A stretch of DNA of 28,709 bases from a virus: the IMG/VR virus record IMGVR_UViG_3300024343_000087, positions 1 to 28,709 of that record; one strand, written 5' to 3'. Positions 1 to 11,849 of the stretch are shown one piece after another. Position 1 is the first letter of the stretch; every line of letters starts with the position of its first letter. The notes under the pieces are model-generated. The model was not told the origin of the DNA. It saw only the letters and a list, made by a program, of their open reading frames with translations, and searched no databases. A program made the translations under genes and the position numbers.

Positions 1-227
1 TGAACGACACTATCAAAGAATTAACTGTTACAAAATCACTCAAACTTCTGTGCGATGGTTTCAAGAATGACTTTGCCCAATATGTGTTTGCCGAAATTCA
101 AAATACGGATCTGTTTGAACAAATTGCAAGTGAGTTTGTGATGGAAAACATTCCTGTGGTTGATGAGGAAACCCAGATGGAACTTTCGGGAATGCTGTTG
201 GAATCTCTGGACATTGTTGCACGATGA
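1..227 (+). CDS. Small hypothetical protein; start codon cut by window edge
   Basis: The frame is open from the first base and stops at TGA 225-227. The window begins with TG followed by in-frame AACGAC, so the start codon probably lies one base upstream, giving a 75-residue protein beginning (M)NDTIKELTVTKSL. It is acidic and probably helical (QYVFAEIQNTDLFEQIASEF), with no signal peptide or membrane segment. I do not recognise the family. The stop overlaps the next start (ATGA at 224-227), so the two genes are likely translationally coupled. Confidence 0.75.
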   Translation, partial: NDTIKELTVTKSLKLLCDGFKNDFAQYVFAEIQNTDLFEQIASEFVMENIPVVDEETQMELSGMLLESLDIVAR

Positions 228-409
228 CTGAAGAACAAATCCTACAACTTGCCGAAAAGTTCAAATTCTGTCTTCGTGATGAAGATTGCATTAGGGATTG
301 GAAAATAACTCCCTCTCTTATACTTGAATTTGCCCGAGCAATGTATGATAATGGATACGATGAAGGTTACTCAAATTGTTCTCTTGATATGGGAGATGAA
401 AATGTATGA
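224..409 (+). CDS. Small acidic hypothetical protein (61 aa)
   Basis: It begins MTEEQILQLAEKFKFCLRD and overlaps the preceding gene by four bases (ATGA). The sequence looks helical and acidic, with a tyrosine/glycine-rich stretch (MYDNGYDEGYSNC) near the C-terminus. Its stop lies one base from the 3' end of the convergent HNH gene, so the homing-endonuclease gene abuts this ORF directly. The function is unknown; it resembles the short early-region proteins of cyanomyoviruses. Confidence 0.75.
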   Translation: MTEEQILQLAEKFKFCLRDEDCIRDWKITPSLILEFARAMYDNGYDEGYSNCSLDMGDENV

Positions 410-410
410 C

Positions 411-905
411 TTACTCTAACCTCTTGCAAGTATAACCTCTATGTTGTCTATGAATACCTTTACCAACTAAACACATTTTGTTTGGTAGTAAGTTATTCTC
501 TCTACAAAACTTTTTGAGATTTGATACTTCTAAAGTTTCTCCATTTGGTGTAGTTACAATCCATTTTTGTTCTGCGATTGTTCTACCTTCACTCTTAAAC
601 TTTTCTCTTTGAGATTTGTTGCCTTTTATTCCATTCTCTTTAACTTTATTTGGATTTTTTTCTCTCCACTTTCTTCCACCCTCCTGGATAACATCCTTAA
701 ATGCTTTATTTCTTGCCCTCCTAAACTCTGGATTTTTAACATCACCTAAAATCATTTTATAAGCACAGAAATCTTTATAATCTCCCCACAACTTCCATTC
801 ACAAAAATGAAACATAGCGTGTTGAGTTGGTGTTATCTCTACAAGATTTGATGGGTCATCAGTTCCACCTCTATGCTTGGGAATGATGTGATGTTTATGT
901 TTCAT
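411..905 (-). CDS. HNH homing endonuclease (free-standing)
   Basis: The 164-aa protein starts MKHKHHIIPKHRGGTDDPSN. Residues 5-33 form an HNH nuclease motif: paired His5-His6, an IIPKHRGGTDD turn, Asn20 in NLVEIT, and His29 in TQHAMFH. The middle (about 65-112) is very basic. The C-terminal 50 residues (VTTPNGETLEVSNLKKFCRE, then a GKGIHRQHRGY segment) resemble the NUMOD/IENR-type DNA-binding repeats of phage homing enzymes. Enzymes of this kind cut a specific site in related genomes and spread their own gene. It is the only confident minus-strand gene in the window and sits between two small plus-strand genes, with no intron evident. A CTAAATA late-type box lies 23 bp upstream of its ATG. 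The HNH call is firm; the C-terminal assignment is tentative. Confidence 0.88.
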   Translation of the reverse strand: MKHKHHIIPKHRGGTDDPSNLVEITPTQHAMFHFCEWKLWGDYKDFCAYKMILGDVKNPEFRRARNKAFKDVIQEGGRKWREKNPNKVKENGIKGNKSQREKFKSEGRTIAEQKWIVTTPNGETLEVSNLKKFCRENNLLPNKMCLVGKGIHRQHRGYTCKRLE

Positions 906-927
906 CTTTAACCAAAGTTACCAGTAT

Positions 928-934
928 TATTTAG
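928..934 (-). promoter_or_regulatory. Late-type promoter box for the HNH gene
   Basis: On the minus strand this reads CTAAATA, with AATAC following, about 23 bp upstream of the HNH start codon. It matches the core of T4-type late promoters (TATAAATA), recognised by the phage late sigma factor gp55. The spacing would give a leader of roughly 15 nt. It points away from the surrounding early genes. Assigned by motif only. Confidence 0.5.
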
Positions 935-1052
935 TACAATGACACTTGATTTTGCAACCTCCAATCTATCAAAAATAAAACCAAAGTTCAGGACTTCAGG
1001 TAACATTTCACAACCACGAAGAAAGGCAGGTTCTACATTGAATGAGATTGGA

Positions 1053-1202
1053 ATGAGCACCAAAGAAACAATTAAATGCGCAACACAAGATGAGTATTTG
1101 ATTCGACTGTATCATGCTTTTGATAACACTACCGACTCTAAACTTCGTCAGTTCATTTATACAGAGATTCGCAAAATCCACGTCCAAAGAGGAACTTGGT
1201 AA
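1053..1202 (+). CDS. Small hypothetical protein (49 aa; longer start at 939 possible)
   Basis: The ORF is open from ATG 939, but I prefer ATG 1053 (MSTKETIKCATQDEYLIRLY). The upstream part (MTLDFATSNLSKIKPKFRTS) is basic, unlike its neighbours, and lies in the segment next to the homing-endonuclease cassette. The preferred product is helical and ends RKIHVQRGTW. Unlike most single genes here it lacks the 37-bp repeat upstream, possibly because the HNH gene inserted there. Function unknown. Confidence 0.6.
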   Translation: MSTKETIKCATQDEYLIRLYHAFDNTTDSKLRQFIYTEIRKIHVQRGTW

Positions 1203-1208
1203 CAGGAA

Positions 1209-1245
1209 ATTAAAGTTACTCACCTCCAAAGTGTCCTAGTAGTAT
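1209..1245 (+). promoter_or_regulatory. 37-bp early promoter/leader repeat, copy 1
   Basis: This is a consensus copy. It starts ATTAAAGTTACTC, carries the imperfect dyad CACCT-CCA-AAGTG, and ends CCTAGTAGTAT. The last six bases (TAGTAT) resemble a sigma-70 -10 box; no convincing -35 is visible. The ATG formed at 1244 is the start of the following ORF. Ten almost identical copies precede genes or operons in this window. Confidence 0.8.
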
Positions 1246-1492
1246 GACCAACACTACCGACCGCAAGTTTCACAACATCTCCCTTGAAGATCGTGAAATG
1301 TTTGCCTACAACGCCGCTTATGAGCGTCGTCAACAACAACTCGCTGCAGTTGCACCCGAACTGCGTATCAAATACTGCTTCGAGTTCCTGAAAGGTTACG
1401 TTGCTGAAGGTGACTCTGAAATGGCAAAGCGTTGCTATGATGGTATCGCTAAGTACAGCGAAGTTCTTGACACTTCTGAGGCACACTTCTGA
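1244..1492 (+). CDS. Small hypothetical protein (82 aa)
   Basis: It begins MTNTTDRKFHNISLEDREMF and then AYNAAYERRQQQLAAVAPEL. The protein is helical, with a positively charged first half and no membrane segment. The ATG lies inside repeat copy 1; the next in-frame ATG is at 1298 (MFAYNAAYERR). The coherent sequence before that Met favours 1244, making this the best case for the repeat's ATG being a real start. The stop overlaps the next ATG (TGATG), so it heads a four-gene operon (1244-2014). Function unknown. Confidence 0.75.
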   Translation: MTNTTDRKFHNISLEDREMFAYNAAYERRQQQLAAVAPELRIKYCFEFLKGYVAEGDSEMAKRCYDGIAKYSEVLDTSEAHF

Positions 1493-1659
1493 TGAAAACC
1501 TATCGTATGCTGATTGAGTATTGGGTTCCTGATGAAGATGAGAATCTCTATGAGGAAAAGATTATCCAATCTCGTTCATCTTGTGGTAAAATCGCTGACG
1601 ATTATCTAGCACAAGACCGCACAAATCTTATCCGTTCCGTTGAAGTTACCCCTGTTTGA
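1492..1659 (+). CDS. Small hypothetical protein (55 aa)
   Basis: It starts MKTYRMLIEYWVPDEDENLY and ends LIRSVEVTPV. The ATG overlaps the preceding TGA by one base, as expected for translational coupling. The composition suggests a small beta-alpha fold: a beta strand (TYRMLIEYWV), an acidic linker, a helix (GKIADDYLAQ) and a final strand. The family is not recognised; it resembles the short conserved early proteins of cyanomyoviruses. Confidence 0.72.
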   Translation: MKTYRMLIEYWVPDEDENLYEEKIIQSRSSCGKIADDYLAQDRTNLIRSVEVTPV

Positions 1660-1661
1660 TT

Positions 1662-1820
1662 ATGATTAACCGAACTGAACTTGAGTTCTTTTTGAATGAG
1701 AGGTGTCGTGAAGATACTGACCTTCTCGCTACAGCTATCAGCGAATATGTTTGGGGTTTAGATACAACCAAACTCGCTGAACTTGAGGACTTTCTTGCTA
1801 ACAACTTTGGAGACGATTGA
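1662..1820 (+). CDS. Small acidic hypothetical protein (52 aa)
   Basis: It starts MINRTELEFFLNERCREDTD and ends LAELEDFLANNFGDD. It lies two bases after the previous stop, and its TGA overlaps the next ATG (TGATGA at 1818-1823). The product is acidic, entirely helical in appearance, with no known motif. The tight spacing on both sides supports it as a real gene in the 1244-2014 operon. Confidence 0.7.
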   Translation: MINRTELEFFLNERCREDTDLLATAISEYVWGLDTTKLAELEDFLANNFGDD

Positions 1821-2014
1821 TGACTGACGGTTACACTTTCAATCGCGTTAAGTTCACCAAAGATGAGGAAACTTGCATACTGCGTTTGTTATATCAAGCA
1901 CGAGATTGTGAGCACTCTGGTATTGATGAAGAATGGAAACCATTGTGTAATGATCTAATCACCAAATACTACAATTCTAACATCAAAGAAGCACAAGACT
2001 GGCAAACCCTCTGA
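1820..2014 (+). CDS. Small hypothetical protein (64 aa)
   Basis: The start is ATG 1820, overlapping the preceding stop; an in-frame TTG at 1817 is a less likely start. The protein begins MTDGYTFNRVKFTKDEETCI and continues with a helical region (LRLLYQARDCEHSGIDEEW, then LCNDLITKYYN). No catalytic motif is apparent. It is the last gene of the operon that begins at repeat copy 1, and is followed by a 137-bp gap containing a 12-bp inverted repeat. Confidence 0.75.
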   Translation: MTDGYTFNRVKFTKDEETCILRLLYQARDCEHSGIDEEWKPLCNDLITKYYNSNIKEAQDWQTL

Positions 2015-2076
2015 ATCTCGTCTGAGACTCGCTGAGAACCCAGTCCACCACTCAAGCAAAAACCTGATTTTTCTGC

Positions 2077-2121
2077 AATTTCACTGCACACGGGTCAAAG
2101 GTCATCCACTGCAGTGAAATT
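2077..2121. repeat. 12-bp perfect inverted repeat
   Basis: The arms are AATTTCACTGCA (2077-2088) and TGCAGTGAAATT (2110-2121), separated by 21 bases that contain GGTCAAAGGTCA, a short direct repeat. A T6 run begins about nine bases after the right arm. It could act as an imperfect terminator for the operon ending at 2014 or as an operator for the gene at 2152. The wide loop and displaced T-run make a standard intrinsic terminator doubtful. Confidence 0.55.
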
Positions 2122-2151
2122 ACCGATTTTTTCCAAAGTACAAACAAACCT

Positions 2152-2295
2152 ATGAAGTACATCGTTGAACTCTACGTTGGTGGCAAAGTCTTTAAGGAGG
2201 AAGTGTATGCTAACTCCCCCAAAGATGCACGCGAGACAGCAACAGCAAGAAATCCTACAGCAAAGGTAGTAGGAGTGAACGTAACTTTCAAGTAA
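2152..2295 (+). CDS. Conserved small protein (47 aa)
   Basis: It starts MKYIVELYVGGKVFKEEVYA and ends RNPTAKVVGVNVTFK. The pattern is a beta hairpin (KYIVELYVGGKVFKEEV), a helix (SPKDARETATARNP) and a final strand (KVVGVNVTF). I recall similar short proteins in cyanomyoviruses, function unknown. The stop codon TAA (2293-2295) ends on the first base of repeat copy 2. This gene has no 37-bp repeat of its own; the inverted repeat at 2077-2121 lies upstream. Confidence 0.75.
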   Translation: MKYIVELYVGGKVFKEEVYANSPKDARETATARNPTAKVVGVNVTFK

Positions 2296-2331
2296 TTAAA
2301 GTTACTCACCTCTAAAGTGTCCTAGTAGTAT
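2295..2331 (+). promoter_or_regulatory. 37-bp early promoter/leader repeat, copy 2
   Basis: It is identical to the consensus except at position 19 of the element (C to T), in the centre of the CACCT/AAGTG dyad. It ends TAGTAT at 2326-2331. The ATG formed at 2330 is in frame with the gene ATG at 2348, 18 bases downstream. Confidence 0.8.
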
Positions 2332-2347
2332 GACCACACTTCAAACC

Positions 2348-2596
2348 ATGATTGAGTTTCCCACTCTTCAGTCTAAAGATGGCACAATGCTGGTAGGTTT
2401 CTATCCTATTGAAGATTGTTCCAACTATACTCTCAAGGTTCTATCTTGGAAGGGTATTGATACCATCTCTCAAAAGTGTATCACCAAGAAAGATGCAATC
2501 CGCGAGATCAATGAGCGTCTTGCAATGGATTATCTTATCACTGGTGATAACATTAACCTGGTGCAAGAATACAACTTTATGGCAGGTGCAGTTTGA
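2348..2596 (+). CDS. Small hypothetical protein (82 aa; or from 2330, 88 aa)
   Basis: The preferred product begins MIEFPTLQSKDGTMLVGFYP. An in-frame ATG at 2330, inside the repeat, would add MTTLQT. The body looks like a small alpha/beta protein (TLKVLSWKG strand, TKKDAIREINERLAMDYL helix) without catalytic motifs. The TGA overlaps the next ATG (TGATG at 2594-2598). It is the first gene of the operon 2348-3027, driven by repeat copy 2. Function unknown. Confidence 0.75.
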   Translation: MIEFPTLQSKDGTMLVGFYPIEDCSNYTLKVLSWKGIDTISQKCITKKDAIREINERLAMDYLITGDNINLVQEYNFMAGAV

Positions 2597-2775
2597 TGTT
2601 TGTCTACGGAGTTTATGCCCGTCTTGATGAATACGAACCTGATGAACTTTATGGTTTGTATGCTAACGAAGAAGACGCATATCGTCGTGCAGAAGAGATG
2701 AAACAAGAATACAACGAAGAGTATAAAGACTCTCAGTATTGCGACGTTCAAGTTCACCAACTCAAGGTTCAGTAA
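2596..2775 (+). CDS. Small acidic hypothetical protein (59 aa)
   Basis: The start is ATG 2596, overlapping the preceding TGA (an in-frame TTG at 2593 is less likely). The sequence MFVYGVYARLDEYEPDELYG is followed by a strongly charged helix (NEEDAYRRAEEMKQEYNEEY) and a final strand (CDVQVHQLKV). It is tyrosine- and glutamate-rich. Similar beta-alpha-beta mini-proteins recur in this region. Function unknown. Confidence 0.73.
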   Translation: MFVYGVYARLDEYEPDELYGLYANEEDAYRRAEEMKQEYNEEYKDSQYCDVQVHQLKVQ

Positions 2776-2808
2776 CTAATGATTTCTCTTCCTAATCCTA
2801 CAAACAAA

Positions 2809-3027
2809 ATGACACTTACTCAAGACCAACTTTACAAACTCACTCTCATGTATGCCGAGCGAGTTGTTGATAACATGGACATGCGCGATTTGTGTGCATT
2901 GGCTATCGACACGATTGTTGACAACATGAATGACTATAAAGAGTCCGAATTGATGGAAGAATTGTCGCACTATTATGATGATGATGAACTGCAAGAATTG
3001 GTAGAAAGTGTAACACAAGAGAGTTGA
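2809..3027 (+). CDS. Conserved small acidic protein (72 aa; or from 2779, 82 aa)
   Basis: Two in-frame ATGs are possible. I prefer 2809, giving MTLTQDQLYKLTLMYAERVV, because the ten residues from 2779 (MISLPNPTNK) look like leader sequence and the MTLTQDQL start resembles cyanophage relatives I remember. The protein is helical and very acidic (MDMRDLCALAIDTIVDNMND, then SHYYDDDELQELVESV). Function unknown. It is the last gene before repeat copy 3. Confidence 0.75.
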   Translation: MTLTQDQLYKLTLMYAERVVDNMDMRDLCALAIDTIVDNMNDYKESELMEELSHYYDDDELQELVESVTQES

Positions 3028-3064
3028 ATTAAAGTTACTCACCTCCAAAGTGTCCTAGTAGTAT
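3028..3064 (+). promoter_or_regulatory. 37-bp early promoter/leader repeat, copy 3
   Basis: A consensus copy. Here the ATG at 3063 is not in frame with the downstream gene: it opens a seven-codon ORF (MSTNHNA, stop at 3084-3086) that overlaps the ATG at 3079. This is one of two copies where the repeat's ATG is out of phase. Confidence 0.8.
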
Positions 3065-3078
3065 GAGCACTAACCACA

Positions 3079-3711
3079 ATGCCTAAACTAACAACAAACG
3101 AAGTATTTGCCAAACTCAAAGTAACTGATTTCAGTGTATTTGAGAAACCTGGTAAAAACAAAGGTGCTCGTGGGCAACTGTTAGAAACTGCCCTGGGAGT
3201 TCCTAACTCTTCCGACCTTCAAGATTTGGAGGATGGAGAGATTAAGACTTTCACTGTTGGTGAATCTATTGCTGCCACACAGTTGAAGCATTGTCTATCT
3301 GAAATCATCGAAGATGCAGTGTCGTTTGATGATAGTAAGGTTGGGCAGAAACTGAAGCAAACTCTCTACGTTGGTTTCACCCGTGAAAACGATTATGTGG
3401 GTTGTGAGATTCTGAATGAGGAAACTCATCCCAAACATTATCAAGAATTGCGTGAGGATTATGAGTTCATTTGTGAGCAGATTCGCACTGCGTTTGAGCG
3501 TGGTGTTGAACTTGACCAACTAGGATTTGTGAATCGTAAGGGTGAACCTTCACACACAATTACAGGTCCAAATGGATTGTTGCAGATTCGCACGAAAGCA
3601 TCTAAAACCAAGCGCAACGATTATACACCTTTGACCTTTACAGATGTGACTTTCAATAACAAAGGAATGGCGTTCTATTTGTGTGGTTCATTCGGTCGCA
3701 ATCTGTTCTGA
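3079..3711 (+). CDS. Probable MutH/Sau3AI-like endonuclease
   Basis: The 210-aa protein begins MPKLTTNEVFAKLKVTDFSV. Residues 26-58 carry a pattern typical of the MutH/Sau3AI branch of the PD-(D/E)XK nucleases: GARGQLLETALG (Glu36), an acidic stretch SSDLQDLEDG (Asp46 or Asp49), then GEIKTFTV with the Glu54-x-Lys56 pair. MutH has the equivalent Glu...Asp...Glu-x-Lys metal-binding set and nicks or cuts at GATC. About 210 residues fits the MutH length. The C-terminal half (ITGPNGLLQIRTKASKTKRN, then a FTDVTFNNKGMAFYLCG ending) would supply DNA contacts. No MutS, MutL or methylase gene is nearby, so a role in host-DNA degradation or exclusion is more likely than mismatch repair. The family call is from motif and length only. 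Confidence 0.6.
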   Translation: MPKLTTNEVFAKLKVTDFSVFEKPGKNKGARGQLLETALGVPNSSDLQDLEDGEIKTFTVGESIAATQLKHCLSEIIEDAVSFDDSKVGQKLKQTLYVGFTRENDYVGCEILNEETHPKHYQELREDYEFICEQIRTAFERGVELDQLGFVNRKGEPSHTITGPNGLLQIRTKASKTKRNDYTPLTFTDVTFNNKGMAFYLCGSFGRNLF

Positions 3712-3748
3712 ATTAAAGTTACTCACCTCCAAAGTGTCCTAGTAGTAT
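3712..3748 (+). promoter_or_regulatory. 37-bp early promoter/leader repeat, copy 4
   Basis: An exact consensus copy, beginning one base after the MutH-like gene's stop codon. The ATG at 3747 is in frame with ATG 3771, 24 bases downstream. The leader (CCAACACACAAACC) is almost the same as at copies 8 and 9. Confidence 0.8.
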
Positions 3749-3770
3749 GACCAACACACAAACCACCAAG

Positions 3771-3989
3771 ATGACTGCTTCCATCAAAAAGCAACAGCAA
3801 ATTAAAGAAATTGTAGGTGAGATTGGTGAATTGTTTGGGCAATTGATTGGTAGTCTAATTGCCACCACAATCATCTCGGGTATTTTGTATGCAATTCTTC
3901 ACTTTCTGATTGGTGCAAGCATCACTTATCTGCAGGTGTTTGGTGCACTTCTGGTTCTTGATTTTATCAAAAACTTTCTCAAAAAGTAA
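3771..3989 (+). CDS. Small membrane protein (72 aa; or from 3747, 80 aa)
   Basis: It begins MTASIKKQQQIKEIVGEIGE. A basic/amphipathic N-terminal segment is followed by hydrophobic stretches at about residues 21-43 (QLIGSLIATTIISGILYAIL) and 45-64 (IGASITYLQVFGALLVLDF), then a basic tail (IKNFLKK). Two transmembrane helices with a short loop are likely, with the basic ends in the cytoplasm. The size and charge layout could suit a small membrane-perturbing or holin-like protein, but nothing specific supports that and there is no endolysin nearby. The in-frame ATG at 3747 would add MTNTQTTK. Confidence 0.75.
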   Translation: MTASIKKQQQIKEIVGEIGELFGQLIGSLIATTIISGILYAILHFLIGASITYLQVFGALLVLDFIKNFLKK

Positions 3990-4012
3990 TTAAGTTCCGA
4001 TTCTAGTAGTAT
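3989..4012 (+). promoter_or_regulatory. Shortened copy of the 37-bp repeat, copy 5
   Basis: ATTAAG is followed by TTCCGATTC and then TAGTAGTAT, so both ends of the repeat are kept but about 13 internal bases, including the CACCT-N3-AAGTG dyad, are missing. The triplet at the ATG position is ATT. It still lies 17 bases upstream of a gene start (4029) and keeps the multiple-of-three distance (18) from that triplet to the ATG. It may be a decayed promoter or one lacking the dyad-dependent control. Confidence 0.6.
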
Positions 4013-4028
4013 TACCCCTGACTTGAAG

Positions 4029-4367
4029 ATGCTTTACACTTCTGGCACGAAACAAAAGAAACAACTTGCATCTCAAGTCTTTGACTGGTTTGCATCACAA
4101 ACTGATTTGGCGAATGTGAATGTTGAAGTATTCCACACAAATCTAGTTAATGATGGTGTATTTGGTTGGTGTGAACAATCAGACGATGATGAGTTTCTGA
4201 TTTCAATTCACAACAACTTGAGCGTGTCTGATTATATTATCACCCTGCTACATGAGTTGGTTCATGTTACACAAACTCTTCGTGGGATGTTTGATGACGA
4301 AGAGCGTGAGCAAGAGGCACACGAACTAGAGCACACACTATTTGTTAAGTATTGTCTGGGCAATTAA
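4029..4367 (+). CDS. HEXXH metallopeptidase-like protein
   Basis: The 112-aa protein begins MLYTSGTKQKKQLASQVFDW; an in-frame TTG at 4023 is an inferior start. Near residues 74-79 lies IITLLHELVHVTQ, an HEXXH zinc-binding site (HELVH) in a helix, followed about 20 residues on by EREQEAHELEH, which could supply the third zinc ligand (Glu or His). This is the arrangement of short SprT-like or ImmA/IrrE-like minimal metallopeptidases. Expression as an early gene suggests a host-directed target, which is inference. The motif is clear; the family and activity are not established. The stop (TAA) is inside repeat copy 6. Confidence 0.68.
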   Translation: MLYTSGTKQKKQLASQVFDWFASQTDLANVNVEVFHTNLVNDGVFGWCEQSDDDEFLISIHNNLSVSDYIITLLHELVHVTQTLRGMFDDEEREQEAHELEHTLFVKYCLGN

Positions 4368-4399
4368 AGTTACTCACCTCCAAAGTGTCCCAGTAGTAT
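4363..4399 (+). promoter_or_regulatory. 37-bp early promoter/leader repeat, copy 6
   Basis: It differs from the consensus only at position 29 (CCCAGTAGTAT in place of CCTAGTAGTAT), the single substitution among ten full copies that is not at positions 18-19. It overlaps the stop codon of the metallopeptidase-like gene. The ATG at 4398 is in frame with ATG 4425. Confidence 0.8.
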
Positions 4400-4424
4400 G
4401 AGCACCACTGAAACCACAAAAACA

Positions 4425-4622
4425 ATGAACTATTACAAAGTAACTGAAATCGAGTTCGATTTCGACTATGAAGATCTCACTCAAGAAGAGAAAGATGAGA
4501 TTGTAAGTGAAACTAAATCCTGTCTGTGGGATTCACCTGATGGAGAGGAATCTCTTGCAGATGTTATCACTAACAACACTGGTTGGTGTATTAAATCTCT
4601 TGCATACAATGTCATCAATTGA
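4425..4622 (+). CDS. Conserved small acidic protein (65 aa; or from 4398, 74 aa)
   Basis: It begins MNYYKVTEIEFDFDYEDLTQ and ends NTGWCIKSLAYNV. The N-terminal strand with TEIEFDFD, an acidic helix and a C-terminal strand with GWCIKSL match a small protein family I remember from cyanomyoviruses, whose members start at this Met. That favours 4425. The ATG at 4398 inside the repeat is in frame and would add MSTTETTKT. Function unknown. Confidence 0.78.
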   Translation: MNYYKVTEIEFDFDYEDLTQEEKDEIVSETKSCLWDSPDGEESLADVITNNTGWCIKSLAYNVIN

Positions 4623-4677
4623 TTAGTTTTTCACTGCTCGCATCTGTCCTACTTCGTTATCACTTTCACCACTGATT

Positions 4678-4827
4678 ATGCTTGAGATTCTGTTAGCATC
4701 CACAATCATCGGAGCAACTGAAATCGCACCGAATGTGTTGCAAATTGACTATCTAACTCCAACACAGCAAATTGTAACTGTTCTGGACAATGTTGAACTT
4801 CAAGGTGGAGAAATTGACCATGATTGA
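4678..4827 (+). CDS. Small protein with hydrophobic N-terminus (49 aa)
   Basis: It starts MLEILLASTIIGATEIAPNV and ends NVELQGGEIDHD. The first 15 residues are hydrophobic and could be a membrane anchor or signal-like segment, although no basic residues precede it. The rest is polar and acidic (QIDYLTPTQQIVTVLDNVE). It overlaps the next gene by eight bases, which supports both being real. No 37-bp repeat precedes it; it may be cotranscribed with the gene at 4425. Confidence 0.62.
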   Translation: MLEILLASTIIGATEIAPNVLQIDYLTPTQQIVTVLDNVELQGGEIDHD

Positions 4828-4960
4828 AACTGAGTTCTATATTCTTTCCCAGGAACAATACCAAGAAAATCTACAGTTTGCAAATGAACTTGGTGTTAGT
4901 ATTGATTACTTTCTTCTAGAGTTTTGTGAAATCGAAGGACCATATGTAACGTCCAATTAA
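4820..4960 (+). CDS. Small acidic hypothetical protein (46 aa)
   Basis: It begins MIETEFYILSQEQYQENLQF and ends EFCEIEGPYVTSN. The sequence looks helical, with a YEN/FANELGVSIDYF segment resembling a short helix-turn-helix, but it is too short to call. The start overlaps the previous stop, and the TAA lies inside repeat copy 7. Function unknown. Confidence 0.65.
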   Translation: MIETEFYILSQEQYQENLQFANELGVSIDYFLLEFCEIEGPYVTSN

Positions 4961-4992
4961 AGTTACTCACCTCGAAAGTGTCCTAGTAGTAT
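4956..4992 (+). promoter_or_regulatory. 37-bp early promoter/leader repeat, copy 7
   Basis: Consensus except position 19 (C to G) at the centre of the dyad. It overlaps the preceding stop codon. The ATG at 4991 is in frame with ATG 5015, 24 bases downstream. Confidence 0.8.
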
Positions 4993-5014
4993 GACCAAGA
5001 CTGAAACCCCCAAA

Positions 5015-5350
5015 ATGACTGCTCACTTCGCAAATCTCTTCGCTCAGAATACTGATCTCACTGCCGAGTTTGTGACTGATTTCACCCGTACTTTCAAGTC
5101 TTCCATCTTTGACAAGTACACCCGAAATGACGGGAAAGTGTATATCAAGCACAGTGTAGATCGTAACACAAAAGGTGATGTATTCTCTGTCGAAGCAATG
5201 ATTTATGAATACAAAGGTTGCTGGTGTGGTAATCAGAAATCCTTCGGTAGTTTCAATAACTTTGCTGATGCAATCTCCTGTGCTCGCAATGTCAAACTGT
5301 CTGAGGATAGCATCAGTGAGAATGATGCACTTTCTCTGATGCGTAACTGA
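5015..5350 (+). CDS. Hypothetical protein (111 aa; or from 4991, 119 aa)
   Basis: It begins MTAHFANLFAQNTDLTAEFV. The N-terminal third is helical; the middle alternates beta-like segments with charged turns (GKVYIKHSVDRNTKGDVFSV, then MIYEYKGCWCGNQKSF); the end is a helix (NFADAISCARNV). The CWCG pair of cysteines is the only possible metal or disulfide motif. No family is recognised. The in-frame ATG at 4991 in the repeat would add MTKTETPK. It is followed by degenerate repeat copy 8. Confidence 0.75.
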   Translation: MTAHFANLFAQNTDLTAEFVTDFTRTFKSSIFDKYTRNDGKVYIKHSVDRNTKGDVFSVEAMIYEYKGCWCGNQKSFGSFNNFADAISCARNVKLSEDSISENDALSLMRN

Positions 5351-5378
5351 AACCACCTCTAAACTGTTCTAATAGTAT
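5350..5378 (+). promoter_or_regulatory. Degenerate copy of the 37-bp repeat, copy 8
   Basis: The right-hand part of the element is present with substitutions (ACCACCTCTAAAC, then TGTTCTAATAGTAT), while the ATTAAAGTT left end is missing. TAGTAT is intact at 5373-5378. The start-like triplet is ATC, 21 bases upstream of ATG 5398. The leader after it (CACCAACACTGAAACC) matches those of intact copies. Confidence 0.65.
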
Positions 5379-5397
5379 CACCAACACTGAAACCAAA

Positions 5398-5580
5398 ATG
5401 ACATTCACTGATGCACTTATCGCTTCTGGTTATTTCTTCCAACCTGAAACTGGTGCCTTTTGGAAAGAAGATTGCAACGACAATGTTCACTCTTATGTTG
5501 AACAAACTGATGGAACTTGGTCTTATGAAAAGTATAATCAAGATTCCCAACTTGTGACTTGTAAAGTATTCTCTCTGTAG
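5398..5580 (+). CDS. Small hypothetical protein (60 aa)
   Basis: It begins MTFTDALIASGYFFQPETGA and continues FWKEDCNDNVHSYVEQTDG. Aromatic- and acid-rich, probably a small beta-sheet protein. The start is clear because the repeat triplet upstream is ATC rather than ATG. The body begins directly after the shared leader, which supports downstream ATGs being the true starts at other copies. Function unknown. Confidence 0.73.
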   Translation: MTFTDALIASGYFFQPETGAFWKEDCNDNVHSYVEQTDGTWSYEKYNQDSQLVTCKVFSL

Positions 5581-5585
5581 TCGCA

Positions 5586-5622
5586 ATTAAAGTTACTCAC
5601 CTCCAAAGTGTCCTAGTAGTAT
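5586..5622 (+). promoter_or_regulatory. 37-bp early promoter/leader repeat, copy 9
   Basis: An exact consensus copy. The ATG at 5621 is in frame with ATG 5639, 18 bases downstream. The leader (CCAACACACAAACC) is identical to that at copy 4 for the first 14 bases after TAGTATGA. Confidence 0.8.
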
Positions 5623-5638
5623 GACCAACACACAAACC

Positions 5639-5887
5639 ATGAAACTCTACATCCTCAAAGAAGTCCTCTACGATTATACTGATGGCATGGCAGTTATCGC
5701 TGCTGAATCTATGTCTCAATGTGAACAACTCTTTATGGAAAAGTTTGGGTATTTCACTAATTGTAATGGTGAAAGAGTGAAGGATGAAAAAGTACAAAAA
5801 GAGTTCAACAATGCTCAAGTTACTGTCATCGAATCTGTAGGAATTGATAAAGCAGGTGTTGTAGAATATGTGTATGGTGGAAGTTAA
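5639..5887 (+). CDS. Small hypothetical protein (82 aa; or from 5621, 88 aa)
   Basis: It begins MKLYILKEVLYDYTDGMAVI, typical of short phage proteins with an N-terminal strand (KLYILKEV), a second strand (GMAVIAAES), a helix (MSQCEQLFMEKFG) and a C-terminal pair of strands (AQVTVIESVG, then GVVEYVYGG). The natural beta-strand start favours 5639 over the repeat ATG at 5621. The family is not named; function unknown. It is followed after three bases by a GTG-start membrane protein. Confidence 0.76.
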   Translation: MKLYILKEVLYDYTDGMAVIAAESMSQCEQLFMEKFGYFTNCNGERVKDEKVQKEFNNAQVTVIESVGIDKAGVVEYVYGGS

Positions 5888-5890
5888 TCA

Positions 5891-6043
5891 GTGGCAACCA
5901 AGAGATTAACATTCAAGTCCCCATCTAAAGTGAAAACAATTCTGTTAATCTTTGCTGTTGCGTTTATACTCTCACCTGGAGTTCGCAACACCACCAGCAG
6001 CACATTATACACTGTTGCTGACATCATCTCTCCGAGTAATTAA
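5891..6043 (+). CDS. Small membrane protein, GTG start (50 aa)
   Basis: The GTG start gives (M)ATKRLTFKSPSKVKTILL. A basic N-terminus is followed by one hydrophobic helix at about residues 15-29 (KTILLIFAVAFILSPG) and a polar tail (RNTTSSTLYTVADIISPSN). This is a single-pass or signal-anchor layout. I recall similar short proteins in marine cyanophages. The stop codon is within repeat copy 10. The GTG is the only start in frame that includes the basic segment. Confidence 0.68.
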   Translation: MATKRLTFKSPSKVKTILLIFAVAFILSPGVRNTTSSTLYTVADIISPSN

Positions 6044-6075
6044 AGTTACTCACCTCCAAAGTGTCCTAGTAGTAT
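6039..6075 (+). promoter_or_regulatory. 37-bp early promoter/leader repeat, copy 10
   Basis: An exact consensus copy across all 37 bases, but the next base is C, so the usual ATG is ATC. The element is therefore conserved independently of the start codon. The ATC is still 21 bases, in frame, upstream of ATG 6095. Confidence 0.8.
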
Positions 6076-6094
6076 CACCACTGAGTTTTCAACC

Positions 6095-6412
6095 ATGCGC
6101 ATCATCGAACGTCAAATGAATAAGGCAATCTGTGATTGCAAAGACTGGAAGAATGACAACACTAAAGTCACCTATTCCCCTGAACGTGACGCAAATTATG
6201 TTTATCTGCACGGCAATCATATTGCAACGATTGGTGATACCTTCCTTGAACTTTACACCTGTGGGTATAAAACTCCAACCACCAAATCACGTCTCAATTC
6301 TATTCTGAAAGTTCACGGAAATGGTGCCCGTATCTTTCAACGTGACTTTGAATGGTTTGTGATTGATAATGGCAACACAGTTCCTTTCACTGAAGGTATG
6401 GTGCTTAACTGA
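6095..6412 (+). CDS. Conserved cyanophage small protein (105 aa)
   Basis: It begins MRIIERQMNKAICDCKDWKN and continues with NYVYLHGNHIATIGD, GYKTPTTKSRLNSIL and FEWFVIDNG segments. The pattern helix, then YLHGNxIA strand, then TPTTKSRLN is one I associate with a widespread family in cyanophages and other marine phages, of unknown function. The start is unambiguous since the repeat triplet is ATC. The TGA overlaps the next ATG (TGATGA). Localisation is presumably cytoplasmic. Confidence 0.8.
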   Translation: MRIIERQMNKAICDCKDWKNDNTKVTYSPERDANYVYLHGNHIATIGDTFLELYTCGYKTPTTKSRLNSILKVHGNGARIFQRDFEWFVIDNGNTVPFTEGMVLN

Positions 6413-6639
6413 TGACTGATACTCAAAAGATTGAAGCACTGACTGAACTTTTGAAAGACGTGATGCACACTCTTGAGATGAAACAATATGAGATTGAAGA
6501 TGCAACTCAGTCTCATCAATGTGAGGTAGAAGCAGATGAGTATCACCAGAAGATGATGGATATTCTTTATAATGAAGCATATACAGAAACGTTTTTCGGT
6601 ACACCTATCACTCAAGAACAGGTAGGTGATTCTAACTGA
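6412..6639 (+). CDS. Small acidic coiled-coil-like protein (75 aa)
   Basis: It begins MTDTQKIEALTELLKDVMHT and is predominantly helical and acidic, with heptad-like spacing of Leu/Ile/Met through the first 30 residues. A His/Cys/Glu-rich stretch follows (SHQCEVEADEYHQKMM), then TETFFGTPITQEQ. The start overlaps the preceding stop. It is the second gene of the copy-10 operon. Function unknown. Confidence 0.73.
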   Translation: MTDTQKIEALTELLKDVMHTLEMKQYEIEDATQSHQCEVEADEYHQKMMDILYNEAYTETFFGTPITQEQVGDSN

Positions 6640-6647
6640 GCGCATCA

Positions 6648-6684
6648 ATTAAAGTTACTCACCTTCAAAGTGTCCTAGTAGTAT
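6648..6684 (+). promoter_or_regulatory. 37-bp early promoter/leader repeat, copy 11
   Basis: Consensus except position 18 (C to T) at the dyad centre. The ATG at 6683 is in frame with ATG 6698, 15 bases downstream, the shortest spacing of the set. Confidence 0.8.
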
Positions 6685-6697
6685 GAGCAACTCCACA

Positions 6698-6955
6698 ATG
6701 ACCTTTCCCTACATCCACATCGAAACTAGCACTCTTGCTAATCATTCTTCTACTTTCTTCAAGGTGAGTGCTGATACTCAAGACGCATGGATTAACAATA
6801 TCTTCCATAATTCACGCTATGGAATTTTCTGTCTTGCTGATGGTAAACTGGAACTGATTAGCAAAGGATTGAATACTACTAAGTTCCGTAAGTGTAAGTG
6901 CAATGATGAAGAAACTGCACTGACTAAGATTCAACAATGGATCGAAAAGTTCTGA
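6698..6955 (+). CDS. Small hypothetical protein (85 aa; or from 6683, 90 aa)
   Basis: It begins MTFPYIHIETSTLANHSSTF. Beta-rich N-terminal half with a GIFCLADGKLELIS hairpin, then a basic Cys-containing turn (KFRKCKCNDEE) and a C-terminal helix (TALTKIQQWIEKF). CKC could be a metal site but two cysteines are not enough to call one. The ATG at 6683 would add MSNST. The TGA overlaps the next ATG. Function unknown. Confidence 0.74.
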   Translation: MTFPYIHIETSTLANHSSTFFKVSADTQDAWINNIFHNSRYGIFCLADGKLELISKGLNTTKFRKCKCNDEETALTKIQQWIEKF

Positions 6956-7137
6956 TGAATTACCAAGAACAAATTAACATTCTCATCGCACAAACTCTTG
7001 AGAAAGTTCAACATCTAAATCCTGAACTTTATGGTCAATGGTATAGTAAACTGTATCATCCCAAGGGTGACAATAATTACTGGAATGTAGAGACGCTTCA
7101 TATACTCGAACAACTCATTCTTGATTATACACAGTGA
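6955..7137 (+). CDS. Small hypothetical protein (60 aa)
   Basis: The preferred start ATG 6955 overlaps the previous stop (TGATGA) and gives MNYQEQINILIAQTLEKVQH; an in-frame ATG at 6937 would overlap the upstream gene by 19 bases. The product is helical with an aromatic middle (PELYGQWYSKLYHPKGDNNY) and ends LEQLILDYTQ. It is the last gene of the early block, and its stop codon forms part of the terminator stem that follows. Confidence 0.74.
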   Translation: MNYQEQINILIAQTLEKVQHLNPELYGQWYSKLYHPKGDNNYWNVETLHILEQLILDYTQ

Positions 7138-7160
7138 CCCTACTTATGGGGTCTTTTTTT
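7136..7160 (+). terminator. Rho-independent terminator ending the early gene block
   Basis: GACCC (7136-7140) and GGGTC (7149-7153) form a GC-rich stem with an 8-base loop, immediately followed by seven T. The stem begins in the stop codon of the gene at 6955. The five-pair stem is short, but the position and T-run are typical. Confidence 0.72.
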
Positions 7161-7269
7161 ATGCTTATTTGCTAAAAAAACGTTTTTTTATTAATTAAAT
7201 GTGTTTTTAAATGTATATGAGTTTTCAACATGTCTGTGGAAAAGTGTATTAAAACTGTGGAATAATACT

Positions 7270-7316
7270 CTTTAAATCCTTCTAGACCCCTGTACTTGTG
7301 TCCTTTAAATCCTTCT
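7270..7316. repeat. 14-bp direct repeat pair
   Basis: CTTTAAATCCTTCT occurs at 7270-7283 and again at 7303-7316, 33 bp apart (about three helical turns). Such spacing places both copies on the same DNA face. No function can be assigned. Confidence 0.7.
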
Positions 7317-7421
7317 GGGTCTTGTTATCTTTGCCTGCAAGATATCACAAACCCGCAAAAATGTCAAGCGCCCCGTCACAAAACCCCCACAATCCCCCCA
7401 CAAAAACACACAGACCCCTGA

Positions 7422-7434
7422 TAAATACCCCCAG
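7422..7434 (+). promoter_or_regulatory. Late-type promoter box in C-rich context
   Basis: GATAAATA followed by CCCCCAG matches the T4-type late box with one mismatch to TATAAATA. The 13-mer TAAATACCCCCAG recurs exactly at 7724-7736. It sits just upstream of the sigma-70 promoter at 7439, so the gene at 7494 may have both an early and a late promoter. Confidence 0.55.
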
Positions 7435-7438
7435 ACCA

Positions 7439-7467
7439 TTGACATCCACGCCCACAAGTCTTATAGT
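7439..7467 (+). promoter_or_regulatory. Sigma-70 type promoter
   Basis: TTGACA (7439-7444) and TATAGT (7462-7467) are separated by exactly 17 bases. This is the best host-type promoter in the window, with a perfect -35 hexamer and five of six -10 positions. Transcription would start near 7474, leaving a 20-base leader with a Shine-Dalgarno AGGAG (7482-7486). Confidence 0.78.
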
Positions 7468-7493
7468 ACCTCTATACACACAGGAGCGCACTT

Positions 7494-7667
7494 ATGTCCG
7501 TTGCATACAATCAAGCACAGAAGGTTCGTTATCGTATTACTCTAGACATTTCTGCGTTTCCTGACTTTGACCCCCATCAAATTGACTGGGAAAAACTATT
7601 CAGACTGGAACCTGCAGAAAAGTGTGATGCTTACGTTGAAGACCTAAGTACACCTGATAGATGGTAA
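7494..7667 (+). CDS. Small hypothetical protein (57 aa)
   Basis: It begins MSVAYNQAQKVRYRITLDIS and ends EDLSTPDRW. The start is well supported: AGGAG lies seven bases upstream and a consensus sigma-70 promoter precedes that. The product is a small soluble protein with a strand (KVRYRITLDI), an aromatic acidic loop (FPDFDPHQIDWEKLF) and a helix (PAEKCDAYVEDL). The family is not recognised. It is one of the few genes here with a classical promoter and ribosome-binding site. Confidence 0.75.
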   Translation: MSVAYNQAQKVRYRITLDISAFPDFDPHQIDWEKLFRLEPAEKCDAYVEDLSTPDRW

Positions 7668-7682
7668 TTTGGTAGCAATTTA

Positions 7683-7690
7683 TACTAAAT
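7683..7690 (+). promoter_or_regulatory. Possible late-type promoter box
   Basis: ACTAAATA lies 63 bp upstream of the ATG at 7753 and about 40 bp before a second TAAATA box at 7724. It matches the late core by motif only. Confidence 0.4.
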
Positions 7691-7699
7691 AAGGTGTTT

Positions 7700-7753
7700 T
7701 AGTTTTGATAGCATAACCCCCCCTAAATACCCCCAGTTATGCTATCAAAACTA
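7700..7753. repeat. 18-bp perfect inverted repeat with a late-promoter box in its loop
   Basis: The arms are TAGTTTTGATAGCATAAC (7700-7717) and its exact complement (7736-7753). The 18-base loop is CCCCCCTAAATACCCCCA and carries a TAAATA late-type box at 7724-7729. The right arm ends on the A of the ATG of the following gene. Transcripts started from the loop box would carry only the right arm; read-through transcripts would carry the whole hairpin. The symmetry is exact over 36 bases. Confidence 0.9.
7724..7736 (+). promoter_or_regulatory. Late-type promoter box (second copy of 13-mer)
   Basis: TAAATACCCCCAG is an exact repeat of 7422-7434. With the core 24 bases upstream of ATG 7753, transcription would start around 7736-7740 and give a leader of about 15 nt. 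It lies in the loop of the 18-bp inverted repeat. Confidence 0.6.
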
Positions 7754-7929
7754 TGAGACCACTAAAGTATAAGAATCTAGGGTATGGAGTGATGATACGA
7801 GTACCTGAAAGTGTCACTGCTATCCTACCTCAACTGCAAGACGTTATGCAACAGTTAGAGGAGAACGGTGAGGATAGTCGTGAGGTCATCTTACAGGTCC
7901 TCAGTGATATTGAAGGACGCATCAATTAA
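7753..7929 (+). CDS. Small hypothetical protein (58 aa)
   Basis: It begins MRPLKYKNLGYGVMIRVPES and continues as a helix-rich acidic protein (ILPQLQDVMQQLEENGED, then EVILQVLSDIEGRIN). The start codon overlaps the end of the inverted repeat and there is no Shine-Dalgarno sequence. The stop TAA lies within repeat copy 12. The C-terminal helices have a coiled-coil look. Function unknown. Confidence 0.68.
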   Translation: MRPLKYKNLGYGVMIRVPESVTAILPQLQDVMQQLEENGEDSREVILQVLSDIEGRIN

Positions 7930-7961
7930 AGTTACTCACCTTGAAAGTGTCCTAGTAGTAT
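7925..7961 (+). promoter_or_regulatory. 37-bp early promoter/leader repeat, copy 12
   Basis: Consensus except positions 18-19 (TG in place of CC) at the dyad centre. It is the only full copy beyond the terminator at 7136-7160. The ATG at 7960 is followed by GGGGGGG and is out of frame with the gene at 8010, 50 bases downstream; it would open a 22-codon ORF overlapping that start. Confidence 0.8.
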
Positions 7962-8009
7962 GGGGGGGCAAACAAACCACTCCTCACTAACACTCAAGAG
8001 AACCACTAA

Positions 8010-8213
8010 ATGTCTCAAACTGTCCTGAACTTCGCTATCGAGAATGCCTTTCAAGTTCTTGCTGCTCAGAGTATGGAACTGTTCGACGCCTGGTATGAGC
8101 GTCTGCACGATGTTCAGATGATTGGTGACATTGAGCACACGACAGAAATCGAATCTGAGTGGACAGAATCCAACTGCGAATTGATGCTCCAAGGTGTTAT
8201 GCCCGCCGCCTGA
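8010..8213 (+). CDS. Small acidic hypothetical protein (67 aa)
   Basis: It begins MSQTVLNFAIENAFQVLAAQ and ends ESNCELMLQGVMPAA. It is helical and acidic (SMELFDAWYERLHDVQMIGD). Its leader (CTAACACTCAAGAGAACCAC) resembles that of the gene at 8501, suggesting that the small genes here share upstream sequence. Its GC content and codon use are higher than in the late genes. Function unknown. Confidence 0.75.
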   Translation: MSQTVLNFAIENAFQVLAAQSMELFDAWYERLHDVQMIGDIEHTTEIESEWTESNCELMLQGVMPAA

Positions 8214-8270
8214 TTATCAGTCTTAAGTAACACTCACTGACCAACACTTTACTGCACTTTTGACCGCATT

Positions 8271-8408
8271 ATGTCCAAGCAAGTTATCCTTTCGATGCTC
8301 TCACAAGGTAACACCGGTGACGAACTTTTGTCCATCCTCGATGTTATCGTCGCCGACATTGAAGAGGAGGGTATTAATAGTTGCGCTGAGGTGTTTGCAG
8401 TTAACTAA
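8271..8408 (+). CDS. Mini-protein, paralogue A (45 aa)
   Basis: It begins MSKQVILSMLSQGNTGDELL and continues SILDVIVADIEEEG. The pattern xxSxLxxxNTGxELxxILD is shared with the gene at 8501, and both genes are followed by related sequence (ACTGCACAGTT, then TAACA and TCATGAC). This makes a diverged tandem duplication likely. The product is helical, with an acidic second helix and a single Cys. Function unknown; mini-proteins of this type can bind host proteins, but that is speculation. Confidence 0.68.
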   Translation: MSKQVILSMLSQGNTGDELLSILDVIVADIEEEGINSCAEVFAVN

Positions 8409-8428
8409 CAACTGCACAGTTAACATTC

Positions 8429-8453
8429 ATGACCCTATGAATTTGGGGGTCAT
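8429..8453. repeat. Short hairpin between the two paralogues
   Basis: ATGACCC (8429-8435) and GGGTCAT (8447-8453) are exactly complementary with an 11-base loop. No T-run follows (ATTAAAC), so it is not a standard terminator on either strand. It may be an mRNA processing or stability hairpin. Confidence 0.55.
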
Positions 8454-8500
8454 TAAACATACCCAATTCACTCACAGTTACTAACACACAAGAACACACA

Positions 8501-8641
8501 ATGCCTAACTCTGCCATCATCTCTCTGCTGGATAGTGCTAACACTGGCACCGAACTTATGCAGATTCTTGATAGTCTGACCAACGACAATCAGCAGGCAG
8601 TTGCTTATGCTGAACCCACTGCAGATAGCATCGAGTTCTGA
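8501..8641 (+). CDS. Mini-protein, paralogue B (46 aa)
   Basis: It begins MPNSAIISLLDSANTGTELM and continues QILDSLTNDNQQAV, ending TADSIEF. Aligned with the protein at 8271, the conserved core is S-x-L-xxx-NTG-x-EL-xx-ILD; the C-terminal tails have diverged completely. The leader contains CTAACACACAAGAACACAC. It is followed directly by a strong 17-bp hairpin. Function unknown. Confidence 0.68.
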   Translation: MPNSAIISLLDSANTGTELMQILDSLTNDNQQAVAYAEPTADSIEF

Positions 8642-8645
8642 TACT

Positions 8646-8691
8646 AACTGTGCAGTCCTTGTGTATAAGACAAGGACTGCACAGTTTCTTA
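8646..8691 (+). terminator. Strong hairpin terminator-like element
   Basis: AACTGTGCAGTCCTTGT (8646-8662) is exactly complementary to 8670-8686, with a 7-base loop (GTATAAG). The right arm ends in TT and is followed by TCTTATG, so the T-run is weak. The stem is the second-longest perfect one in the window. It lies five bases after the stop of the gene at 8501 and probably ends that transcript or protects its 3' end. Confidence 0.65.
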
Positions 8692-8890
8692 TGTTAACAC
8701 TCATGACTGATTGATTCTTTATACCTACAATCGTGATTTGACAGTGTTAAGAATTAGCAGTTAATTTATGTTGTTTGTTATTGTTTATAGCGGGCGTTGC
8801 GTATATAAAAACGCCCCACTACCCTAACCTACAGAGGTGACAAATCGACCTCTAACTATCACTCTTATAAAAATTTTCCGGAGTAAAAAA
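8692..8890. other. Non-coding leader region with promoter-like motifs
   Basis: No gene is evident. TTGACA at 8738-8743 with TAATTT at 8762-8767 (18-base spacer) is a possible sigma-70 promoter. GGGCGTT (8792-8798) and AACGCCC (8810-8816) form a hairpin with a TATATAAA-containing loop. AGAGGT (8833-8838) and ACCTCT (8848-8853) form a second small hairpin. TATAAAAA occurs at 8804-8811 and 8866-8873 and differs by one base from the late box TATAAATA, so either could drive the genes starting at 8891. Confidence 0.45.
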
Positions 8891-8974
8891 ATGAGTGTAA
8901 AATGGATTCATTCAAACAACCATTCACGTCCAGATAAAAGGACTTTAAAGAAAGGTGGTAAGAAGAAAAAATAA
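8891..8974 (+). CDS. Very small basic protein (27 aa)
   Basis: It begins MSVKWIHSNNHSRPDKRTLK and ends in a lysine/glycine tail (KGGKKKK). The start is supported by a CCGGAG Shine-Dalgarno-like sequence nine bases upstream (8878-8883). It is extremely basic, as for a nucleic-acid-binding or virion peptide. The next gene starts within it in another frame. I remember comparable short basic proteins in cyanomyoviruses, so I treat it as real despite its length. Confidence 0.58.
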   Translation: MSVKWIHSNNHSRPDKRTLKKGGKKKK

Positions 8975-9107
8975 TCGCCCCTATTGGAATTTCTGGAAGG
9001 TTGTCTTTGCAGGATGGTTAATAAGGTATCCACGGCAGTGCTTTACGATATTCGGAAGTATTGCTGCATTTTTATTTGTACTGATATATAATGCGGCAAC
9101 AAAATAA
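8955..9107 (+). CDS. Small membrane protein with GTG start (50 aa)
   Basis: The GTG at 8955 gives (M)VRRKNNRPYWNFWKVVFAG, then WLIRYPRQCFTIFGSIAAFL, ending VLIYNAATK. Basic and aromatic residues precede a hydrophobic helix at about residues 29-45, so a single-pass membrane protein with its N-terminus inside is likely. It overlaps the 3' end of the basic gene by 20 bases in a different frame, which points to coupled translation. No ATG is available in frame upstream of the aromatic segment. The amphipathic WNFWKVVFAGW section is unlike random sequence. Confidence 0.66.
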   Translation: MVRRKNNRPYWNFWKVVFAGWLIRYPRQCFTIFGSIAAFLFVLIYNAATK

Positions 9108-11447: not shown

Positions 11448-11849
11448 ATGCCTGTAGAGCGGGTCAATAGCGGATTTAAGGACCTGAGTATGACATTTCA
11501 GGCCAATCCTATCAATTATGATTTAATTGCTCTGAAAAATGAGACTGCTATTGCTCGCTCTATTCGAAATTTGGTACTTACTTATCCTGGAGAAAGATTT
11601 TTTAACGAAAATCTAGGTTCAAAAGTAAGTCGTTCTCTTTTTGAAAATATTGATGAAATGTCTGCATCAATTGTTAAAGATGAAATTGAGACAACTATCC
11701 AGAATTATGAACCAAGAGTAGATTTAATTGATGTGATAGTAGTTCCTAATTATGATAACAATGAATTTAATGTTACTGTTAATTATAAAATTATCGGAAT
11801 TAATGTTCTTCCGCAACAATTATCATTTGCACTTCAGCCAACACGATAA
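11448..11849 (+). CDS. 25: Baseplate wedge protein gp25
   Basis: The 133-aa protein begins MPVERVNSGFKDLSMTFQAN. The IARSIRNLVLTYPGERFFNE segment and the following LGSKVSRSLFE are the classic conserved signature of T4 gp25 (132 aa). These also match the gp25-like sheath-initiator proteins of contractile systems such as type VI secretion TssE. gp25 sits in the inner baseplate wedge and helps nucleate sheath assembly. Its stop directly abuts the gp6 ATG (TAAATG). The late box upstream and the gp6-gp7-gp8 genes downstream confirm the assignment. Confidence 0.95.
   Translation: MPVERVNSGFKDLSMTFQANPINYDLIALKNETAIARSIRNLVLTYPGERFFNENLGSKVSRSLFENIDEMSASIVKDEIETTIQNYEPRVDLIDVIVVPNYDNNEFNVTVNYKIIGINVLPQQLSFALQPTR

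Follow-up and report, generated by a model that had tools for sequence, protein, structure and literature searches.

The promoter early stem-loop (PeSL) cassettes of T4-type phages are repeated promoters, some copies of which include a stem-loop terminator, according to the passages of PMC4503421 that cite Arbiol 2010 and Comeau 2014. Near-identical intergenic repeats that were shown to be promoters are present in the early/middle arm of the halovirus HF2 (PMC8707807), and the middle (MotA/AsiA) and late (gp55) promoters of T4 depend on phage-specific recognition beyond the host sigma-70. The relevant passage of PMC5780444, citing Doron 2016 and Thompson 2016, describes T4-like cyanophages without T4-like middle promoters and without motA and/or asiA. 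In its passages on promoters, Sullivan 2010 (PMC3037559), whose genomes include S-SM2, predicts them with sigma-70, T4-late, Pho and NtcA motifs; these passages do not mention the element described below, of which an exact description may exist elsewhere. Here we analyse a 38-bp element, AATTAAAGTTACTCACCTNNAAAGTGTCCYAGTAGTAT, present in ten copies in a 28,709-nucleotide stretch of viral DNA (IMG/VR record IMGVR_UViG_3300024343_000087, positions 1 to 28,709; the whole stretch is called the window), which is from a T4-like cyanophage of the Kyanoviridae. Sequence comparison suggests, with a probability that we put at about 0.65, that the element represents a repeated class of cyanophage promoter with messages starting at or just before a start codon, ATG37, at its 3' end.

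The comparison with PeSL cassettes made in a preliminary description of the window is supported, in that the element is likewise repeated at gene boundaries of a variable (hyperplastic) small-gene region whose neighbourhoods change at the cassettes, but its sequence is not that of a sigma-70 early promoter, the conservation extends across at least 38 bp and takes in a start codon, and most copies have no stem-loop. The HF2 repeats resemble it in arrangement but, as archaeal promoters of the TATA/BRE type with lengths of 58 and 29 bp, have neither sequence nor host in common with it. With the T4 middle and late promoters the element would share its phage-specific recognition, but the element consensus contains neither a MotA box (TGCTT core, at about -30) nor the T4 late signal TATAAATA. 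Compared with a sigma-70 promoter (TTGACA-16/18-TATAAT), it has a -10-like hexamer and no TTGACA, and its start codon lies before the expected start; a sigma-70 consensus scan of the window called no copy's TAGTAT as a -10, and the match at 6018-6046 ends in the initial bases of copy 8. The element is most likely a variant of the repeated intergenic phage promoters, with a long conserved site, an exchangeable 5' half and a built-in start codon.

Copies of the element in the window

The 38-mer is numbered 1-38, with AATTAAAG at 1-8 and TAGTAT at 33-38, and the terminal triplet at 37-39, formed by the end of the element and the next base, is mostly ATG. All ten copies lie on the + strand, which is the coding strand, at gene boundaries; none is expected by chance (100 dinucleotide shuffles of the window). 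The ten repeats of the preliminary description are thus present, each one base longer at the 5' end than the 37-mers given there, and its count of six differences per 370 positions is correct; the variants are C20T, T30C, C20G, C19T and C19T+C20G. Every copy directly precedes an open reading frame (ORF), as that description had stated, ATG37 opens an ORF at seven of the ten, and the two degenerate copies reported near 3988 and 5350 are real.

1208-1245, + strand: element copy 1; ATG 1244 opens ORF 1244-1492 (phrog_15469), the following ATG not coming before codon 19
2294-2331, + strand: element copy 2; ATG 2330 opens ORF 2330-2596, with a second ATG in the same frame
3027-3064, + strand: element copy 3, an exception; the gene 3079-3711 is in another frame than ATG 3063
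3711-3748, + strand: element copy 4; ATG 3747 opens ORF 3747-3989
3988-4012, + strand: degenerate copy, AATTAAG...CTAGTAGTATT; the 5' half is gone and only the 3' half remains, ATT replaces ATG; precedes the metallopeptidase-like ORF 4023-4367
4362-4399, + strand: element copy 5; ATG 4398 opens ORF 4398-4622
4955-4992, + strand: element copy 6; ATG 4991 opens ORF 4991-5350
5348-5379, + strand: degenerate copy, accacctctaaactgttctaatagtatcacc; ATC where ATG is expected
5585-5622, + strand: element copy 7; ATG 5621 opens ORF 5621-5887
6038-6075, + strand: element copy 8; terminates in TAGTATC, and the gene has its own ATG 6095
6647-6684, + strand: element copy 9; ATG 6683 opens ORF 6683-6955
7924-7961, + strand: element copy 10; ATG 7960 is out of frame, and the gene 8010-8213 uses its own ATG

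The copy that precedes the ortholog of the metallopeptidase-like gene 4023-4367 in the related contig L050 still scores as an element. In related contigs the stop codon of the preceding gene overlaps the initial bases of most copies.

Overlap with start codons and the start of transcription

A total of 402 unique copies were compared. Among those with ATG37, the gene's own nearby ATG is in frame with it 116:1, as against 83/21/53 for the distances to the gene ATG over the three frames in copies without ATG37, and this contrast places ATG37 within a translated message. Fifteen ortholog groups (79 copies) have, in at least some copies, no ATG, GTG or TTG within 12 codons after ATG37, and codons 4-12 of these ATG37-only groups evolve as coding sequence, with 589 differences at third, 238 at first and 169 at second positions. 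By these measures of sequence evolution, ATG37 is a translated start codon where it is present. Nine of the ATG37-only genes stand alone, with an element on either side. The preliminary description had proposed transcription starts 6-8 bases after TAGTAT, in which case the element of these nine isolated genes would express no gene; such a start is disfavoured, since TAGT-ATG supplies the start codon of many genes, some of which have no other. Transcripts probably start at or just before ATG37 and would be leaderless or near-leaderless.

Several observations weigh against this placement of the start. The TAGTAT/TATAGT at 31-38 is -10-like and in the usual geometry would direct a start at 43-45, downstream of the ATG; a canonical promoter in the window (7439-7467) has TATAGT as its -10; read-through from upstream copies could supply a translated ATG; a start at 31-37 is not matched by any -35/-10 pair, and TAGTAT/TATAGT would lie too near it for an ordinary -10; and, when counted by ortholog group, 5' hairpins at the proposed start show no significant enrichment relative to shuffled tails. 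Such read-through messages are the main rival to a start at or before ATG37. The element would then be a sigma-70-type promoter with TAGTAT/TATAGT as its -10 and a start at 43-45, as in T4 early promoters, and ATG37 would be used only on messages from further upstream. We consider this unlikely, if well short of negligible: the hexamer is combined with an UP-like geometry (counted from a start at 45, AAnTT lies at about -55 and AATTAAA at about -42), a canonical TATAGT promoter stands in the same window, A43 is conserved, and most units are co-directional with no obvious upstream terminator, but the isolated ATG37-only genes between two elements would receive nothing from their own promoter, the reading frame is kept at the ratio given above, a start at 43-45 would cut through the SD-like (Shine-Dalgarno-like) GGAG that one P-TIM68 copy has at 41-44, and there is no TTGACA-like -35. 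The Shine-Dalgarno positions in P-TIM68 are suggestive only.

Individual hairpins were seen near the proposed 5' end. A striking one, ATGAGAACGCC..GGCGTTCTCAT in L052, was not used as evidence. In the uvsW-like leaders, upstream of the UvsW helicase gene (L029, L036 and L061:8418), a strong and conserved hairpin lies behind the element (AGCACGCTT..AAGCGTGCT; AGCACCCTT..AAGGGTGCT).

Evidence for a promoter role

The element stays with its downstream gene, and many different upstream sequences precede the element and the same gene. In related contigs, four unrelated, strong intrinsic terminators end 5-7 nt before the element, namely GGACTC..GAGTCC-T7, GAGAGGG..CCCTCTC-T7, AGGTGTCC..GGGCACCT-T6 and AGGTGCC..GGCACCT-T6, and the resulting order of terminator, element and gene is hard to explain except by a promoter. 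Most copies have no terminator directly upstream. The lack of a stem-loop terminator given in the preliminary description thus applies to the ten copies of the window, as far as scanned, and not to these related contigs.

The same terminators bear on a role at the RNA level, in which the element would be part of polycistronic messages and would act as a processing site, cut at U36-R37, or as a ribosome-recruiting signal for translation initiation. Its constant sense orientation between a stop codon and a start codon and the invariance of T36-R37 (T36 in 400/402 unique copies and a purine at 37 in 402/402) would suit such a role, but terminators directly upstream of some copies do not, nor does the independent variation of its modules between lineages, for which no compensation was visible by inspection. 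No structured RNA family in Rfam matched the element, and the helically phased A/T block that lies inside the upstream gene suggests that the signal is read as DNA. On balance we find an RNA-level role improbable.

It is more improbable still, to the point of being very hard to sustain, that the element is a mobile repeat spread by recombination and devoid of a regulatory role. Variable upstream neighbours and homogenised copies within a genome would be expected of such a repeat; the fixed distance and frame relative to the genes, the strict orientation, the conservation at the level of single bases across divergent phages and the absence of opposite-strand copies within a cluster would not.

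Conservation and distribution

With ortholog-group weighting, positions 2-18, 21-27 and 30-38 are near-invariant, and conservation amounts to about 65 bits across the 38 bp. An AA at -11/-10 and a TT at -8/-7 (AAnTT) recur one helical turn before AATTAAA, within the upstream coding sequence. Copies from the same genome differ by 4.1/38, as against 6.4 for copies that precede the same gene in different genomes (a contrast reached in 0/500 permutations). The copies of a lineage therefore appear to be under concerted evolution, as expected if a single factor reads the many sites and/or recombination keeps them uniform.

The exact 38-mer occurs in 52 stretches of IMG/VR viral contigs, and these stretches contain about 324 copies with at most 8 mismatches, a level at which the reversed-sequence control gave none. 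Near-identical or lineage-specific versions precede similar genes in dozens of related viruses. Within a whole record the copies are one-stranded and clustered, as for the 15/15 that lie at 45-61 kb (16 kb) of a 222-kb record, and those of S-SM2 and P-TIM68 are likewise clustered on one strand. The search of related cyanophages suggested in the preliminary description thus finds the element again, both in these exact matches and, in diverged form, in the cultured phages SynMITS9220M01 (about 12 copies), S-B05 (14 copies, 12 plus 2 on the other strand, with the site ATTACTCACCT), S-B43, P-TIM68 (13 copies with GTTAGTTACCTCTAAATTGA...TTAATG) and S-SM2 (12 copies, with the site GGGGGGTCG). The single-cell virus AG-345-O18 has about nine copies which, like those of S-SM2, carry AAGGGGGGTCGCCTAAAGYGTCCCTATAGTATGAG; in these two viruses the 3' half is shared and the 5' half is swapped for another, as expected if a lineage-specific factor reads the element. 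The exact 38-mer was found in none of the bacterial and archaeal genomes searched by exact pattern, which lends no support to the mimicry of a host sequence that had been considered.

The proposal of recent amplification is not supported, the class being old and common to divergent Kyanoviridae, even if the copies of any one genome have been kept similar. The alternative offered with it, that this is no ordinary sigma-70 family and involves a larger protein contact, agrees with the information content, the lineage-homogenised versions and the swapped 5' half of S-SM2.

Candidate recognition factors

A search with PF04545 (sigma-70 region 4) gave no match in seven phage genomes and matched 14/14 controls, a divergent sigma of the gp55 type still being possible; PF00940 (T7-family polymerase) gave none in the seven genomes, nor in the control genomes. 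A lead, and no more than that, is a basic, low-complexity protein of 190-225 residues with the N-terminus MKTFxxFxxE, which we take to resemble the capsid targeting sequence of T4-like phages. It is encoded at the following positions.

L090, 815-1420: basic protein gene
L100, 9522-10103: basic protein gene
L086, 10039-10653: basic protein gene
L124, 2660-3322: basic protein gene
L165, 16208-16885: basic protein gene

This putatively capsid-targeted protein, a candidate for the factor, might be injected as an early modifier by analogy with T4 Alt. The protein is present in ten phage records, of which nine belong to element-bearing phages; in the remaining one, a 16.8-kb fragment (AG-345-E15), no element cluster was found. 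Bellamy, which the gp6 tree places as sister to S-SM2, has neither protein nor element. All 37 contigs found via the protein, and not via the element, carry versions of the element (37/37), often lineage-specific ones such as AAAGTGGACC, CACATTGTCC, AAACTGCC and AATAGCTCACC. The candidacy is contradicted by S-B43, whose record contains elements but lacks this gene, unless that record is incomplete at about 177 kb; it is weakened by the disordered, non-specific appearance of the protein, and shared ancestry accounts for much of the co-occurrence. Near 177.1 kb of the S-B43 record (MN018232) the S-B05 alignment ends abruptly, passing at once from the small-gene region into tail/UvsY genes, possibly through a deletion or an assembly join.

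A second candidate, an acidic protein of 80 residues, was rejected: it is present in S-B43 but also in P-SSM2, S-SRM01, DSL-LC02 and S-SCSM2R, whose regions do not carry the element. The last ten residues of the query used for it were incorrect (the real tail is ESAVVESFTT), with little effect expected.

Genomic surroundings and other promoter-like families

The genes gp25 and gp6 precede the large ORF 13762-25782, whose product is gp7, the baseplate initiator of T4-like cyanophages. The elements occupy the small-gene region upstream of gp25-gp6-gp7, which is the equivalent site in named relatives. Megablast of window positions 1-9000 against named phages gave no match.

11448-13760, + strand: gp25 and gp6 baseplate genes, which in all relatives mark the downstream border of the small genes

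The same region of S-SSM7, Syn9, Bellamy, S-CAM9 and S-SCSM2R contains repeats of other promoter-like families, whose -10 boxes are ordinary. Such repeats (TATAAT... in S-SSM7, GTGTAT..AGAGTCAAAGG in Syn9 and Bellamy, TATAATGACTTCAG in S-PM2) share with the element a homologous position and several copies per genome, but have ordinary -10 hexamers and, in the copies seen, a start codon about 20-30 nt downstream. In several cyanophages that do not bear the element (L085, S-SSM7; L063, Bellamy; L068, Syn9), a block CAGTT-n(3-7)-AACTGGCACA lies about 20-45 bp upstream of the -10 boxes, with 8 strict matches in S-SSM7 and none in reversed controls; it is absent from nearly all element-bearing phages and is possibly an operator or activator site. 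The region thus appears to be occupied by at least two promoter systems, the element class being one, and the gp6 tree shows at least two changes.

Within the window, the canonical promoter at 7439-7467 (TTGACA-17-TATAGT) and a Shine-Dalgarno sequence precede ORF 7494-7667, with non-canonical elements as neighbours. An inverted repeat at 7693-7760 (25 nt, 88% complementary), the right arm of which enters the start of ORF 7753-7929, resembles the T4-style leader hairpins that block translation. An HNH endonuclease ORF (PF01844) lies on the opposite strand within the gene array (411-905, - strand), and a very strong terminator-like hairpin of 17 pairs (8646-8686) follows ORF 8501-8641.

Proposed mechanism and significance

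In the proposed mechanism, the element would serve repeatedly as a promoter in the small-gene region upstream of gp25-gp6-gp7. The host RNA polymerase would initiate at position 37 or a few bases before it (candidates 31-37). Messages from copies with the ATG would then have no leader or next to none, those from copies lacking it a leader of about 15-20 nt. Polymerase binding may be aided by the A/T blocks further upstream (AAnTT, placed one helical turn ahead of AATTAAA), and a specificity factor that the phage encodes or modifies would read the lineage-specific block 8-18. A bolder and more doubtful version, which we offer tentatively, is a new class of phage promoter in which a phage-encoded, perhaps virion-injected, factor co-evolves with 10-16 sites per genome and transcription starts directly on the start codon or beside it; promoter and codon would then make up a single conserved unit, and the messages of the small-gene region would be largely leaderless.

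With no T4-like middle promoters and no motA and/or asiA, as the passage of PMC5780444 noted above has it, how T4-like cyanophages order the expression of their genes is an open question. The element provides a precise, searchable signal with about ten or more sites per genome, also in the cultured phages S-SM2, P-TIM68, S-B05 and SynMITS9220M01, and yields predicted message starts and a few candidates for the factor. Its homogenisation within lineages and its swapped 5' half would make it a natural system for the co-evolution of a regulator and its sites, and its position at the joints of changing gene neighbourhoods bears on the evolution of hypervariable phage regions.

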